From assembly GCA_902796945.1 (NCBI GenBank), contig CADBQR010000148.1, positions 1-38,584 of the forward strand: 38,584 nt of DNA, read 5' to 3'. The stretch comes from an uncultured Acidaminococcus sp. GTDB lineage: Bacteria; Bacillota; Negativicutes; Acidaminococcales; Acidaminococcaceae. Positions 29,490-37,277 of this stretch are shown piece after piece; position 1 is the first letter of the stretch, and each line of letters begins with the position of its first letter. The position numbers were made by a program, and so were the translations under genes. The notes beneath the pieces were generated by a model, which searched no databases, was not told the origin of the DNA, and saw only the letters and a list, made by a program, of their open reading frames with translations.

Positions 29490-29516
29490 AAAAAAACAGC
29501 TCCCTCTCAGGAGCTG
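29490..29516 (-). terminator. Terminator overlapping the end of the carboxyltransferase gene
   Basis: Minus-strand stem CAGCTCC/GGAGCTG with a 6-nt loop, then seven T. The TGA stop (29507-29509) lies in the loop, so the left arm encodes the last residues of the protein. Confidence 0.88.
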
Positions 29517-30847
29517 CGATGTTTTTTCAGGAATTCCTTCCCAACCTGGGGAAAGAGCAGGTACGTAAGGACATCTTCCTCGCTTCTGGCAAATTCCTGA
29601 CTTTCCCGGACTCCCTTTTCCCAGCCGGGAGCGATGAGATCGGCCGGCCGACAGGTCAGCGGCACGGCCCCCTTGCGAAGGACAAGTTTTTTAAGTTCCT
29701 CCGCCACCGGGCCAGGAGCTTTTCCGTATTTCCCCATTACATAATCCTTGATTTCCTTAAGAAGGACCTTATACCGGCCACCACTCATGATGTTCATGGC
29801 CGCCTGGGCACCGCACATTTGGGAAAAAGGAGTTCCCAGCGGTGGGTACCCCAGATCCCGACGGACCCGGACCACTTCTTCCAATACCTCAGGAAGCCGG
29901 TCCAGTGCATTCAGCTGGGTCAATTGAAATTCCAGGTTGGACCTCATGCCTCCAGGAATCTGATGGCGGACCACGTTGATATCCACCCCCTTGAGCTTTG
30001 ATTCAAAGGAGGCATGGGCTGCCCTCACTTTTTTCAGATAAGCGGTGATGGGCGCCAGTTTTGTATAATCCAGACCCGTATCCCGTTCTGTTCCCTGGAG
30101 AACCGCAATCAGGCTTTCCGCAGCCGGATGCCCCGTACCCAGGGCAAAAGCAGCCGTATCGACATCGACCACATCGACGCCGGCCCGGATGACTTCCCAA
30201 TACGTAATATCCGTCATGCCGCCGGTGCAGTGTGCGTGATAATGGACGGGCACGTCAAAATGCTCCTTCAGGGCCTTGACGGTTTCCACGGCCTCCCGGG
30301 GTGTCTTCATGCCGCCCATGTCTTCCAGGTGCAGGGCTGTCGCTCCGATATCCAGATACTCCTGAGCGGTCTTCACAAAGGAATCCACCGTATGGACCGG
30401 ACTTGACGTAAACTGGATATTGGCCTCCACCTTCTTGCCCGCCTTCAGCGCGGCTTCGGCCGCACGGCGCACGTTGCGGACATCATTGAGTCCATCGAAG
30501 ATAAGGAAGATATCGATTCCGTTCCTGGCAGCTGCAGTCACAAAATGGTCAACCACGTCATCAGGATACGGCGTATACCCCAGAAGGTTCTGCCCTCGCA
30601 GCAGCATACGCAATGGCGTATGGGTGCAATACTGCTTGATGGTCCGAAGGCGCTGCCAGGGGTCCTCATCAAGGAAGCGGATGCAGGCATCAAAGGTTGC
30701 CCCGCCCCATACTTCCAGGGCAGCAAAGCCAAATTCATCAAGGCCCTTCAGGACGGGCAGCATTTCTTCCGTGGTCATTCGGGTTGCAATACAGGCCTGC
30801 TGTCCATCCCGCAGGTCACAGGATACGAGTTTGACTGGATTTGGCAT
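29507..30847 (-). CDS. Oxaloacetate decarboxylase alpha/pyruvate carboxylase-B-like carboxyltransferase, biotin domain absent
   Basis: 446-residue DRE-TIM barrel protein of the carboxyltransferase family. ATG 30847 is chosen because AAAAGGAG lies upstream; the frame opens 90 bp earlier without a site. Family blocks are clear: LRDGQQ (12-17, metal-binding Asp14), EVWGGATFD (45-53), RGQNLLGY (84-91), VHYHAHCTGG (201-210; His202 and His204) and GTERDTGLDYTKL. A PYC_OADA-type C-terminal domain follows. Two points are odd. There is no biotinyl domain, so the carrier must be a separate protein. The KDMAG motif, whose Lys is normally carbamylated and binds metal, reads LEDMGG with Glu175. The catalytic region TSQPP reads TGHPA. 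The reaction may therefore differ from classical decarboxylation or transcarboxylation. Confidence 0.85.
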   Translation of the reverse strand: MPNPVKLVSCDLRDGQQACIATRMTTEEMLPVLKGLDEFGFAALEVWGGATFDACIRFLDEDPWQRLRTIKQYCTHTPLRMLLRGQNLLGYTPYPDDVVDHFVTAAARNGIDIFLIFDGLNDVRNVRRAAEAALKAGKKVEANIQFTSSPVHTVDSFVKTAQEYLDIGATALHLEDMGGMKTPREAVETVKALKEHFDVPVHYHAHCTGGMTDITYWEVIRAGVDVVDVDTAAFALGTGHPAAESLIAVLQGTERDTGLDYTKLAPITAYLKKVRAAHASFESKLKGVDINVVRHQIPGGMRSNLEFQLTQLNALDRLPEVLEEVVRVRRDLGYPPLGTPFSQMCGAQAAMNIMSGGRYKVLLKEIKDYVMGKYGKAPGPVAEELKKLVLRKGAVPLTCRPADLIAPGWEKGVRESQEFARSEEDVLTYLLFPQVGKEFLKKHRSS

Positions 30848-30942
30848 AATGGATTCTCCTTTTATAAGCGGGTCTGGAGGGTATACCCCTTCCAGGTGCA
30901 CCGGTTCATGCGGCCGATGGCTTACGTTCCCTATCAAATTTT

Positions 30943-31050: not shown

Positions 31051-31079
31051 TTGACATTCCGGCCGATATCCTTTATAGT
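31051..31079 (+). promoter_or_regulatory. Strong promoter of the MATE exporter gene
   Basis: Perfect TTGACA (31051-31056), 17-bp spacer, TATAGT (31074-31079). The predicted start is near 31086. Confidence 0.75.
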
Positions 31080-31085
31080 AAGTAT

Positions 31086-31171
31086 CACTCATCAGAGGGT
31101 ACACTGTTCACAGGAAACAGCACACCGGATAAGATGTCAGGTTGAAACACCTGGTCTTATCCGGTTTTTTT
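31086..31171 (+). promoter_or_regulatory. Candidate riboswitch (guanidine-IV/mepA-like) in the MATE leader
   Basis: The leader between the promoter and the MATE ATG is about 108 nt and ends in a full intrinsic terminator 24 nt before the start codon. Constitutive termination would silence the gene, so regulated antitermination is expected. Ahead of the terminator is a small hairpin CTGTT/AACAG (31104-31108, 31116-31120) with loop CACAGGA. It can be extended by GGT (31098-31100) pairing with ACC (31124-31126), which are the first bases of the terminator. The CAGG of the loop can pair with CCTG (31150-31153) in the terminator arm. Size, position and gene type fit the guanidine-IV (mepA) class found before MATE exporters. 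I cannot verify its conserved bases from memory, so the class is tentative. Confidence 0.55.
31124..31171 (+). terminator. Conditional terminator in the MATE leader
   Basis: Perfect 11-bp stem ACCGGATAAGA/TCTTATCCGGT, inner CAGGT/ACCTG stem, then T-run 31165-31171. The carboxyltransferase gene on the left is transcribed away from it, so no upstream plus-strand gene needs this terminator. It must act on the MATE transcript. Confidence 0.85.
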
Positions 31172-31194
31172 AATGCTTACAGGGAGGAACTGCC

Positions 31195-32559
31195 ATGGAA
31201 AGACGCATTGATTTTACAAACGGGGGAATACTGGAGCCGCTGCTGCAGTTTGCACTGCCGGTCCTCTTTGCCCTCTTCCTGCAATCCATGTACGGAGCCG
31301 TGGACCTGCTCGTGGTCGGGCAATTTGCCACACGGGCCGATGTTTCCGCGGTTTCTACGGGATCCCAGATCATGCAGACTGTTACAAACCTCATCGGGTC
31401 CCTGTCCACGGGTACGACGGTCCTTTTAGGACAGAAAATCGGGGAAGGCAATGCAAAGGAAGGCGGCCGGATCTGCGGAGCTTCCCTCTGCCTTTTCTTT
31501 ATCATCGCCCTGTTCTTTACGCTTTTACTTACCCTGTTTTCCGCTCCACTGGCTCATTTAATGAACGCTCCAGCCGAGGCTTTTTCCTTAACGGAAACCT
31601 ATACCCGGATCTGCGGGGCCGGTTCCCTCGTCATCATTGCCTACAACCTGATTGGCAGCATTTTCCGCGGCATCGGGGATTCCCGGACGCCGTTCTACAC
31701 CGTAGCCATCGCCTGTGTCTGCAATATCCTGGGCGATCTGCTGCTCGTTGCCGTTTTTGAGATGGGCGCTGCCGGTGCCGCCATTGCCACGGTAGCTTCC
31801 CAGTTTCTCAGTGTTGCCATTTCCCTCTGTCTGATACGCAGGAAATCCCTGCCTTTTGAGCTGCACCGCTGGGATATCCGTTTCCACAGGCAACTGGTCT
31901 ATCAGGTTCTCTCCCTTGGTCTTCCCATCGCCGTACAGGACCTGCTCGTCGGCATGTCCTTCCTGATTATCCTTGCCATTGTCAACCATCTTGGCATCAT
32001 CGCCTCGGCCGGCGTCGGCGTGGCAGAAAAAATCTGCGGTTTTATCATGCTGGTTCCCGCTGCTTTCATGCAGTCCATGTCGGCCTTTGCCGCCCAAAAC
32101 AAAGGGGCTGGCCGTATGGACCGGGCCCGGCAGGGACTGTATTATGCCATCGCCGTTTCCCTCTGTTTTGGCTTTTGTACCAGCTGGACCTCCTTTTTTC
32201 ATGGCGCGGACCTGGCCGGGTTCTTTACCCATGAAAGGGAAGTGGCCCTGGCCGCTGCTGATTACCTGAAAGCCTATTCAATCGACTGCCTGCTTACAAG
32301 CTTTCTCTTTTCCTTTGTCGGCTTCTACAATGGAATCGGCCTGACCCGTTTTGTCATGGTCCAGGGTATCGTCGGCGCTTTTGGGATCCGTGTTCCCGTC
32401 TCCTATTTCATGAGCCTGCAAAAACCGGTTTCCCTCTTTCACGTCGGCCTGGCCACTCCCTGCTCATCGGCGGTCCAGATCCTGTTATGCCTGGCCTGTT
32501 TTTACCTACTTCATGGAACGACCCGGAAACCAACCATCAGGACTTTATGGAAACACTGA
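31195..32559 (+). CDS. MATE family multidrug/cation exporter
   Basis: 454-residue Na+- or H+-driven exporter with twelve predicted helices in two six-helix halves. It starts with RIDFTNGGILEPLLQFALP, and has the typical SMYGAVDLLVVGQFA of the NorM/DinF group, GSIFRGIGDSRTPFY at the end of the first half and GVAEKICGFIMLVPAAFMQS in the second. AGGGAGG lies 7 nt before ATG 31195. The gene has its own promoter and a leader with a terminator, suggesting ligand-controlled expression. If the leader is guanidine-responsive, the substrate would be a guanidinium-like cation. It ends 17 bp from the convergent lactonase gene with no terminator between them. Confidence 0.92.
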   Translation: MERRIDFTNGGILEPLLQFALPVLFALFLQSMYGAVDLLVVGQFATRADVSAVSTGSQIMQTVTNLIGSLSTGTTVLLGQKIGEGNAKEGGRICGASLCLFFIIALFFTLLLTLFSAPLAHLMNAPAEAFSLTETYTRICGAGSLVIIAYNLIGSIFRGIGDSRTPFYTVAIACVCNILGDLLLVAVFEMGAAGAAIATVASQFLSVAISLCLIRRKSLPFELHRWDIRFHRQLVYQVLSLGLPIAVQDLLVGMSFLIILAIVNHLGIIASAGVGVAEKICGFIMLVPAAFMQSMSAFAAQNKGAGRMDRARQGLYYAIAVSLCFGFCTSWTSFFHGADLAGFFTHEREVALAAADYLKAYSIDCLLTSFLFSFVGFYNGIGLTRFVMVQGIVGAFGIRVPVSYFMSLQKPVSLFHVGLATPCSSAVQILLCLACFYLLHGTTRKPTIRTLWKH

Positions 32560-32576: not shown

Positions 32577-33629
32577 CTACTTGGTTTTTCCATTGTAAAA
32601 AGTCACGCAAACCGGGTTATCGGTCTGGATCTGGGTACCGCTGAACTCAAGCGTACCGTCCATTGGCGAGATATCATAAAGACGGATGGAAGCGCTCAAT
32701 TCGTTGGCGACAACCAGTTGGGTTCCATCGGGAGTGATCGTGATAAAACGGGGCTGTTGTCCCCCGGCAGGAATCCATTGTTTGAAAGCAAGCCGGCCTG
32801 TCTTTTCGTGAACCGCAAAAACACTGACGGAATCAGCCTTGCGATTGGAAACGTAGAGATACCGGCCATCCTTTCCTGCGACAATCCCGCTGGCCCAGCC
32901 GTCTTCCGTATACGTATCCGGCAGGGTTGGCACAACCTGGAAAGGGGCAAGCTTGCCCGCTGCCGCATCAAAATGGTAAGCCGTTACGGTATAATCCTTT
33001 TCATTGACCCCATAACAGCAATGTTCAGGACCGGCAAACGCAATATGCCTGGGTTCGGCAATTTCCCGGGAGCGGACGATATCGGTACGGGTCAGGGTTC
33101 CGTCATGGTTGATTTTCAGCACATCGATCTGTCCGTAACCCGCTTTCCGCCCCTGGCACGATACAAGCAGGTATTCCCGGCTGGGATCCTGGAGCACCTG
33201 GTGAGGGTGGGAAATAGCACCCTCTTCCCGGCCCGGCATCGGACAGAGGAAGCAGTAATCCTCTACGCTTCCGTCTTCATGCCGGGGGATGACGGATACC
33301 GTTCCGGTTGCCAGGTTGGCCACATAGATCCACCGATTGTTTTTATCGATGGAGAGATGGACCGGATTCTTCCCACCCGTCCGAGCCGTATTCAGATATG
33401 TCAGGTGCCCGTTCCGCGGATCGATTTCAAAGGCACTGATTTCGCTGAAATCCCCATGAATGGAGTAGAGAAAACGCCCGGTCTCATCAATACATTGAAA
33501 TGAAGGATTGACCAGGTTTTCCAGGAGCTGGTCCAGCGTCCACTTACCATGATCGATTGCATACAGGGAAATCCCCTTTCCCGTCGCGTTCCGTTCCCTG
33601 GTCGTCCTGCAGCCTACGTAAGCAAACAT
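32577..33629 (-). CDS. Lactonase-family seven-bladed beta-propeller protein
   Basis: Related to 6-phosphogluconolactonase of the Pgl/YbhE type. 350 aa from ATG 33629, with AAAGGAG 9 nt upstream; ATG 33635 is also in frame but only 3 nt from the site. Propeller-type repeats recur through the protein: GRFLYSIHGDFSEISAFEID, NRWIYVANLATGTVSVI, GRYLYVSNRKADSVSVFAV and GTQLVVANELSASIRLYDI. The family also includes enzymes acting on other sugar or organic-acid lactones. Here the gene is the last of a tricarboxylate cluster, only 19 bp after the carrier gene. Hydrolysis of an isocitrate-type lactone is therefore an attractive but unproven role. Confidence 0.85.
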   Translation of the reverse strand: MFAYVGCRTTRERNATGKGISLYAIDHGKWTLDQLLENLVNPSFQCIDETGRFLYSIHGDFSEISAFEIDPRNGHLTYLNTARTGGKNPVHLSIDKNNRWIYVANLATGTVSVIPRHEDGSVEDYCFLCPMPGREEGAISHPHQVLQDPSREYLLVSCQGRKAGYGQIDVLKINHDGTLTRTDIVRSREIAEPRHIAFAGPEHCCYGVNEKDYTVTAYHFDAAAGKLAPFQVVPTLPDTYTEDGWASGIVAGKDGRYLYVSNRKADSVSVFAVHEKTGRLAFKQWIPAGGQQPRFITITPDGTQLVVANELSASIRLYDISPMDGTLEFSGTQIQTDNPVCVTFYNGKTK

Positions 33630-33648
33630 ATCCATATACTCCTTTCAC

Positions 33649-35003: not shown

Positions 35004-37277
35004 TCATTGGCTGATTTTATAATAATTGATCAGGCACCCGGCGAGGAGCACCTCTTTTTCAGCTTCCGTTACATCAGGCAGGTTGAGTCTCAGCGTTCTG
35101 GTGCTTCCGTCCGGAGCGATAACGGTGGCATTGACTTCCGTTACGCCCGCTTCCACTTGTCTGCGAATGCCCGGCAGGTAAATGGTTTCGCCCGGCTCCA
35201 GCTGGATTTCGGGATCGGCGCAGGTAAAAGGCAGGATGCCCCAGTTCACGCAGTTGGAACGATACCGTTTCGTGGCATATTCGATGCAGATATTGGCAAA
35301 GCCGCCCAGGACTTTCTGGCAGCTGGCAGCGTACTCGCGGGCACTGCCATCGCCGGGTCGCTTCGCATACAACACACTGCCAATGCCAGTATGATTCATC
35401 AGGCGGTCCGCATCGACAGAAATACCCGCTTTCTTCAGGATTTCAAAGTATTCCATCGCTTTGGCCTGATTTCCTGCCAGACGGGCCCGTTCATACTCGC
35501 GGACAGCTTTGGCACGGCCCACATATTCCGGGTCCTTGCGGATGAGGGTGAATTCGGAAATCTTTTCCGGATTCGAACGGTAGGATGCGGTTTCACCCGA
35601 AGGAATCAGCTCGTCCGTTGTGGTCACTTCGTCCCGAATGACACTGGCCACCCGCAGCAGCAGGTCATCAGCCAGTGCTGTCATTTTCGGCCAGTCGCGG
35701 ATATCCGGCCCGTATACCATTTCCGTTGCCTTTTCAGGTTTCCTGAATCCATTATAGACCGTATGTTCATAAATGCGGCGGTTAAAATGATATTTCGGGT
35801 AGGAAAAGTCCTCCCACACATCGGCTGCACTCGTCAGACGGCCGCCATTAAAGGAAGTGGCAGCAATGCTGCGGGAATCCATCAGGGCTACGCAGGCAAA
35901 CTGGTTCATGGCCGGATTGGACCCTTCGCGATTCGGGAAGTTGCGCGTCGTATGGCGGATCGAGAATTCGTTGTTGGCAGGGGTATCACCGGCGCCAAAG
36001 CAAGGTCCGCAGAAAGCGGTCTTGACGCGGACGCCATAGTCCATCAGCGTTTCCAGTGTGCCGGTTTCCATAAGGGCTGTCATGATCGGCTGACTGGCAG
36101 GATAGACGTTGAAATTGTAGCTGCCTACGCCCTGCTTCATATGTTCGGCAATCTTGCCGACGGCGTACAGGTTTTCAAAGGAACCGGAGCAGCAGCCGGC
36201 AATGATGGACTGGTCTGCATACAGTTTGCCGTCATCATGGATCTTTCCGGCAAGGTCCCAATGCACATTGGGGTTGTTCTCAAAGGTCTTCTTTGCGTTT
36301 TCATCAATTACAGCCAACGCATCCTTCGGGTTCCTGATGACTTCTGCCAGGCTGTAGACATTGCTGGGATGGAACGGCAGGGCAATGACCGGTTCAATCG
36401 TATCAAGATCCACTTCAATGAGTTTATCATAGAGAGCCGTCCTGCCCGGCTTCATTTCTTTGTAACCCGCGGGGCGGCCGTGGATGGCAAAGTATTCCTC
36501 CGTCTTTCCATCCGTCATCCACAGGGAGGACAGGCAGGCCGATTCCGTGGTCATCGTATCAATGCCATTGCGGAAATCCATGGAAAGATTCCCGACGCCG
36601 GGCCCTACGAATTCAAGGACACAATTCTTGACAAACCCGTTCCTGAAGACCTTCCCGATTATGGACAGCACCACGTCCATCGGACCGACCCAGGGTTTTG
36701 GCGTTCCCGTCATGAAAACGCCGACTACCTTCGGGTATTTCAGGGCATAGCTTTTGCCCAGCATGGCCTTGGCCAGTTCCGGCCCCCCCTCCCCGATGGA
36801 CAGGGACCCCAGGGACCCATAACGGGTATGGCTGTCGGAAACGATGGACATTTCACCGCTGTTGACCATCATTTCACGCATATACTGGTGAATCACGGCT
36901 TCATGGGGTGGTACGAAAATACCGCCGTATTTCTTGCACGCTGAAAGGGCATACTTGTGCACATCTTCGTTGATGGTGCCACCGACCGCGTTCAGGCAGT
37001 TATGGCAGTTGGTGAACACGCAGGGCATCGGGAATTCCTTCAACCCGCTGGCAATAGCCGTCTGCAGGATGCCCACATAGGTGTTATCATAGACGCCCAT
37101 GGCGTCAAACTTGATCTCCAGGTTCTTCATATCATCTGTCTGGTTATGGGCTTTCAGGACCTGGTAGGTCATCGTTTCCCTGCGGGCTTCCTCCGGGGAA
37201 ATGCCCGGCTTATCCGCTCCCGTATGAATGCGTTGGTTATCCAGCACGTAGGTAGGTTCACTGTATAACTTGATCAT
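35004..37277 (-). CDS. Aconitase-family hydratase, YbhJ-like
   Basis: 757-residue [4Fe-4S] hydro-lyase close in size and sequence style to E. coli YbhJ. The substrate-site block VSDSHTRYGSLGSLSIGEGG (146-164) matches the aconitase TDSHT region. Cluster ligands are expected at the Cys pair in AGCCSGSFENL (362/363) and in CGPCFGAGD (Cys423 and Cys426). The Arg block TTRNFPNREGSN (443-454) and the C-terminal GDGSAREYAASC (642-653, equivalent of the catalytic Ser-Arg motif) are also present. The gene therefore looks catalytically intact. The start has GGGAGGG upstream and follows the isomerase gene by 15 bp. In this context it probably hydrates an aconitate isomer. Confidence 0.88.
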   Translation of the reverse strand: MIKLYSEPTYVLDNQRIHTGADKPGISPEEARRETMTYQVLKAHNQTDDMKNLEIKFDAMGVYDNTYVGILQTAIASGLKEFPMPCVFTNCHNCLNAVGGTINEDVHKYALSACKKYGGIFVPPHEAVIHQYMREMMVNSGEMSIVSDSHTRYGSLGSLSIGEGGPELAKAMLGKSYALKYPKVVGVFMTGTPKPWVGPMDVVLSIIGKVFRNGFVKNCVLEFVGPGVGNLSMDFRNGIDTMTTESACLSSLWMTDGKTEEYFAIHGRPAGYKEMKPGRTALYDKLIEVDLDTIEPVIALPFHPSNVYSLAEVIRNPKDALAVIDENAKKTFENNPNVHWDLAGKIHDDGKLYADQSIIAGCCSGSFENLYAVGKIAEHMKQGVGSYNFNVYPASQPIMTALMETGTLETLMDYGVRVKTAFCGPCFGAGDTPANNEFSIRHTTRNFPNREGSNPAMNQFACVALMDSRSIAATSFNGGRLTSAADVWEDFSYPKYHFNRRIYEHTVYNGFRKPEKATEMVYGPDIRDWPKMTALADDLLLRVASVIRDEVTTTDELIPSGETASYRSNPEKISEFTLIRKDPEYVGRAKAVREYERARLAGNQAKAMEYFEILKKAGISVDADRLMNHTGIGSVLYAKRPGDGSAREYAASCQKVLGGFANICIEYATKRYRSNCVNWGILPFTCADPEIQLEPGETIYLPGIRRQVEAGVTEVNATVIAPDGSTRTLRLNLPDVTEAEKEVLLAGCLINYYKISQ

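Follow-up and report, generated by a model that had tools for sequence, protein, structure and literature searches.

The question raised by this 38,584-nt stretch of DNA from an uncultured Acidaminococcus sp. (contig CADBQR010000148.1; the whole stretch is called the window below) is what controls the gene of a MATE family efflux transporter (31195–32559, plus strand, 454 aa; TIGR00797, 206 bits against a cut-off of 147.4; PF01554) and to which kind of RNA its leader belongs. The first-pass annotation had proposed a ligand-controlled terminator in front of this gene and a guanidine-IV riboswitch as the candidate. The analysis of the leader and its homologues makes it likely that the leader belongs to a widespread and apparently unnamed class of cis-acting RNA resembling a transcription-attenuating riboswitch of the ON type. 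A regulated terminator before the MATE exporter is well supported by distant conservation, compensatory changes, predicted mutually exclusive folds and a predominance of MATE genes downstream, but the guanidine-IV label is not.

A sigma-70-type promoter, TTGACA-17-TATAGT, is located at 31051–31079 and agrees with the consensus at 11 of 12 positions, as the first-pass annotation had indicated; three aligned relatives also keep the -35 hexamer TTGACA and a -10-like hexamer. All leader elements are located on the plus strand. The 11-bp terminator expected shortly before the MATE start codon was found at 31124–31171. It consists of a stem (31124–31134/31155–31165), a top hairpin (31138–31142/31149–31153) and seven T residues (31165–31171), and the ATG at 31195 follows the last T by 23 nt. 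The minimum free energy of the RNA 31080–31175 is -34.6 kcal/mol (z = -5.24), and none of 200 shuffled sequences reached an equally low value.

Comparison with the homologues revealed a conserved module, predicted to comprise the helix P0, the variable hairpin P1 and, between them, an asymmetric internal loop that is nearly invariant (RGAG/GGAUAA). P0 is formed by CAUC (31090–31093) and GAUG (31133–31136), the latter overlapping the top of the terminator stem. The loop strands are AGAG (31094–31097; consensus RGAG) and GGAUAA (31127–31132), the second of which also lies within the terminator stem; both are near-invariant in homologues. The base of P1 pairs GGU (31098–31100) with ACC (31124–31126), and these last three nucleotides are at the same time the first bases of the terminator stem. 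This sharing of ACC between a small upstream hairpin and the terminator had been noticed in the first reading of the window, and it is conserved in homologues. The distal P1 hairpin, CUGUU-CACAGGA-AACAG (31104–31120), shows changes on both sides in homologues at all five pairs. The architecture is nested, with no loop-loop pseudoknot. A pairing between CAGG (31111–31114) and CCTG (31150–31153) had also been suggested as the basis of exclusive states; it is possible in the window, but the 4-nt match occurs in only one of 24 aligned homologues, which is the window itself. The exclusive pairing that is conserved instead is that of P0 together with the base of P1.

The two sides of P0 vary together among homologues (UUGCU/GGCAA, UGCU/GGCA, CGCC/GGCG, AUCCC/GGGAU, UUGUC/GACAA and UUCCC/GGGAA). 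For P0 and the P1 base in 39 copies, 43 cells changed on both sides were counted, compared with 11.9 in shuffles, and the covariation score was 0.503 against 0.285, a value reached by none of 500 shuffles and far above that of the slid controls. When the 24 model matches alone were used, the signal was weaker and its direction unchanged. For the terminator, distal P1 and top hairpin, 94.8% of cells were paired in the 24 aligned matches, and the covariation score was 0.396 against 0.182 in shuffles. In some homologues, the top loop of the terminator harbours a further, nested copy of the module, which keeps the internal loop but forms P0 from other bases; such copies were seen in L027, L031, L032, L098, L109, L111, L112, L118, L137, L138, L143, L144, L154, L170 and L203. 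This arrangement could possibly serve two-site sensing.

The conservation of the leader, whose absence from relatives would have spoken against the first proposal, extends far beyond close relatives. Three related genomes with the leader were retrieved by a search at the DNA level. Conserved in their alignment with the window are the promoter hexamers, the sequence TCATCRGAGG, a hairpin, and GGATAAGATG together with its complement. In the class, inferred to be Negativicutes, a covariance model built from these four leaders (R1) matched 53 of 380 genomes at E ≤ 0.1 and 26 of them at E ≤ 1e-5, and it reached unrelated lineages with scores of up to 91 bits. Matches of R1 and of a further model, R3, under about 35 bits were mostly ordinary terminators and were not used. 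A scan with the pattern CATCRGAGG-N8..38-CYGGATAAGATG gave at least 119 loci, while about 14 would be expected by chance according to our own estimate with uniform bases; the loci L150 and L190 look like such chance matches. Among the matches listed are Bacteroidales, Lachnospiraceae, Oscillospiraceae, Clostridium, Negativicutes and Ligilactobacillus, as well as metagenome-assembled genomes labelled Petrotoga, Treponema, Lentisphaeria and Elusimicrobiales. A divergent copy with GGAAAA in place of GGAUAA and a separate terminator was observed in L065 (431–540, minus strand; G051:C3 168930–169039), where it precedes an SMR gene with a seemingly shortened reading frame.

A MATE gene is located downstream in 108 of 147 loci, and the remaining partners include an MFS exporter (13 loci), DUF554 (2), a B3/4-domain protein (2) and GNAT (1). 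At least 300 nt of downstream sequence were available in 140 of these loci, two places were counted twice (L018/L162 and L029/L158), and a downstream gene was assigned in 126 loci, 15 being unassigned. In Lactobacillales, model R3 found three GNAT leaders, the B3/4 leader and one MATE leader. The motif stands before standalone B3/4-domain (CtdA-like) proteins in L113 and L183, which belong to Ligilactobacillus saerimneri and one further genome. In L016, L020 and L080, it precedes MATE genes that look broken; the long open frame that comes next was judged by eye to be a sodium:alanine symporter-like gene in L020 and L080.

The terminator uses the 3' strand of the module as its own 5' strand, and therefore the two folds are mutually exclusive. 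In the window, the energy of the terminator fold is -34.6 kcal/mol and that of the forced module is -14.5 kcal/mol, while in the nascent RNA ending at 31140 the module lies 2.8 kcal/mol above the best fold. Since the terminator is by far the most stable structure and the module is close to the best fold in the nascent RNA, termination is expected to be the default, and stabilisation of the module during transcription is expected to lead to read-through. Without ligand, the much more stable terminator would form and transcription would halt ahead of the gene. A small molecule binding the internal loop of the nascent RNA would lock P0 and P1 together, and the locked module would block the terminator and let the polymerase read into the gene (antitermination). 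The ligand is probably a toxic compound exported by the downstream transporters. B3/4 proteins (CtdA) act as editors of canavanyl-tRNA, and guanidine riboswitches frequently control them (PMC10018355). The rare B3/4 and GNAT partners are no more than a hint at guanidino-type toxins; the ligand may be guanidino-like. More speculatively, it may be flavin-like, as the internal loop presumably resembles the artificial flavin mononucleotide aptamer (see below) and YeeO, a MATE protein of E. coli, is a flavin exporter (PMC6092379).

The leader has the mark of a transcription-attenuating riboswitch, namely a conserved and covarying module that excludes a terminator. Neither Rfam 15 nor the literature, searched for sequence fragments and MATE leader motifs with few subscription journals covered, gave a description of the motif. 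We take the leader to be a real, conserved, riboswitch-like attenuator of the MATE gene, most likely in a class of its own, though possibly one known elsewhere. We propose more tentatively that it represents an undescribed riboswitch class, present in isolates of Bacillota and Bacteroidota and in metagenome-assembled genomes of further phyla, whose RGAG/GGAUAA loop would sense a toxic compound and which would control MATE and other exporters, sometimes with two nested copies. Several points weigh against a riboswitch. Exporter and GNAT genes also accompany systems controlled by proteins or ribosomes, and the copies in alignment A7 were hand-picked around the core, though poorly pairing ones were retained. 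In addition, 44 of 104 pattern loci among the matches listed have an AUG that is followed in frame by a stop exactly at the fourth codon, which leaves room for a ribosome-based reading.

According to such a reading, the leader is a ribosome-mediated attenuator: GGAG and GGA would be ribosome-binding sites, GAUG would begin a three-codon open reading frame (AUG-X-Gly-stop), and ribosomes stalled there by drugs would keep the terminator from forming, so that the exporter is induced. The downstream genes are indeed exporters, and a stop at the same place is found in the other two frames in only 3 of 104 and 0 of 104 loci. The stop at codon 4 is TAA or TGA in different lineages, and the codon before it mostly encodes Gly or Asp. 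The AUG itself, however, is present in these loci by construction, since the pattern scan required GATG. Members found by the models without an AUG (L012, L017, L024, L317–L319 and L323) keep P0 with other bases and keep the UGAAA loop, which in others, e.g., L117 and L131, is out of frame, and the small open reading frame of the window would encode just Met-Ser-Gly. The members that lack the AUG and keep P0 argue against a ribosome-based switch, which we consider unlikely, although the regularity of the codon-4 stop is not fully explained.

The leader might instead be a diverged representative of the Gd4v motif, an orphan guanidine-IV variant with which the window class shares a top hairpin, a gut habitat and MATE partners. 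According to its published description, the sequence of the Gd4v motif is extremely close to that of guanidine-IV, loop 2 has a conserved GU, and the motif is located mostly before a transaminase gene (PMC9788692). The corresponding place in the window class is occupied by GA, and a transaminase of the PRK07324 type was found in none of the 126 assigned downstream genes (15 further loci unassigned). A PF02423 search for Gd4v operons revealed one Gd4v-like RNA in L287, near an OCD-family gene; this RNA (loop ACC, GGU and an extra hairpin) scored 19.4 bits with the guanidine-IV-type model R2 (see below) and was not matched by R1. The window class, with CAUC/GAUG, GGAG/GGAUAA and mostly MATE partners, is set apart by the published description from Gd4v with its guanidine-IV-like loops. 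The leader is probably not Gd4v, and membership in this motif is improbable, although this rejection is less firm than that of guanidine-IV itself (see below). Guanidine-IV-like SMR leaders with an extra loop-2 hairpin (GUAGGCAGC...) were observed at about 1390–1475 of L035 and, on the reverse strand before an SMR gene, in L047. Such a hairpin was reported never to be present before sugE genes (PMC9788692).

A regulatory protein might also bind the internal loop as an antiterminator. Conserved internal loops within helices are typical protein sites as well, and the evidence for the module comes from sequences only. However, distant phyla share the core, which precedes differing genes with no adjacent regulator gene seen, and no common RNA-binding protein was identified, without a systematic search; control by a protein has only a slim chance of being correct. 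CsrA was dropped as the regulator on taxonomic grounds, since Bacteroidales are not known to have it.

The last alternative is the guanidine-IV riboswitch itself (mepA motif, GGAM-1), in which guanidine stabilises a loop-loop pseudoknot and thereby blocks the terminator. The logic is the same, namely an ON-switch with an exclusive fold that uses the 5' strand of the terminator, and the partners (MATE, SMR and GNAT) are similar; MATE genes are typical of guanidine-IV (PMC12186494). The window shares an intrinsic terminator as the expression platform and an exporter downstream, the latter not being specific. For comparison, a guanidine-IV-type covariance model (R2) was built by us from 12 SMR leaders. 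In the SMR leaders of Lactobacillales and of the window's class, the loop of hairpin 1 is RCCGGG and the terminator loop contains AGGYCnnnG. The numbering published for mutants gives G66, U67 and G72 (loop 2) for the L. lactis guanidine-IV RNA (PMC7736828) and A29-U72, C30-G71 and G77 for the C. botulinum RNA (PMC11611296). The SMR-leader motif was identified as guanidine-IV because this numbering fits and because of its genes, which encode SMR and GNAT proteins and a protein family about 158 aa long. By eye, we take this family to be NimA-like.

Within the class, R2 matched 72 of 379 genomes, with scores of up to 65 bits. The covariance-model check suggested with the guanidine-IV proposal was run with this self-built model and gave no match to the leader, since the window scored 2.7 bits, and nothing was matched anywhere in the genome of the window. 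R1 scored no higher than 13.5 bits on the Lactobacillales SMR leaders, and the R2 scores of sampled motif loci did not exceed 13.9 bits. The loops ACCGGG and AGGUCnnnG are missing from the window leader. In guanidine-IV, loop 1 has RCC followed by GG and pairs with the GGY of loop 2, whereas the strands of the window are CAUC and GAUG, and in place of the conserved G-U-N4-G of loop 2, A rather than U follows the pairing G in nearly all homologues. The core of the window class is thus another one, with nested P0, internal loop and P1 instead of a loop-loop pseudoknot and with an extra top hairpin. Rfam 15 gave nothing relevant on the window and its homologues, but it also gave no match on the guanidine-IV-type SMR leaders, so its silence on the window is uninformative. 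A guanidine-IV riboswitch at this locus is very improbable.

With regard to other known RNAs, guanidine-I, -II and -III had no Rfam match in the window. As a control, guanidine-I was detected by Rfam in L085, a locus obtained by a query with a Gdx-like protein against plasmids, which gave nothing else. Guanidine-I (ykkC) has a short stretch, ACGGAGGGAUAAAAG, beside the terminator (variants in L209 and L207) that is superficially like CGGAG...GGAUAAG, but the two RNAs have no common architecture. The internal loop AGGAUAU/AGAAGG of the in-vitro selected flavin mononucleotide aptamer presumably resembles CGGAUAAG/CGGA-GG across the same helices. The adenine that contacts the flavin in the aptamer has no counterpart in the window class.

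Other features of the locus include an alternative upstream hairpin, GUAUC/GGUAC (31082–31102), which in minimum free energy folds belongs to the predicted ligand-free state and competes with P1 for GGU; it is poorly conserved in homologues. A Shine-Dalgarno-like sequence, GGGAGGA, is found at 31182–31188. The MATE gene is the lone gene of the plus strand amid genes of the minus strand, namely an oxaloacetate decarboxylase alpha-like gene on its 5' side (29507–30871) and genes for a 6-phosphogluconolactonase-like protein (32577–33635) and an aconitase-family hydratase (35004–37277) on its 3' side.

The presence of a terminator leader ahead of a MATE gene is thus insufficient for a guanidine-IV assignment, and the consensus CAUCGGAGG ... 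CYGGAUAAGAUG is offered for the class described here. If the leader is a riboswitch, it would represent a candidate new class located before an exporter family that is among the commonest in gut bacteria, and its ligand would reveal what these MATE proteins export.
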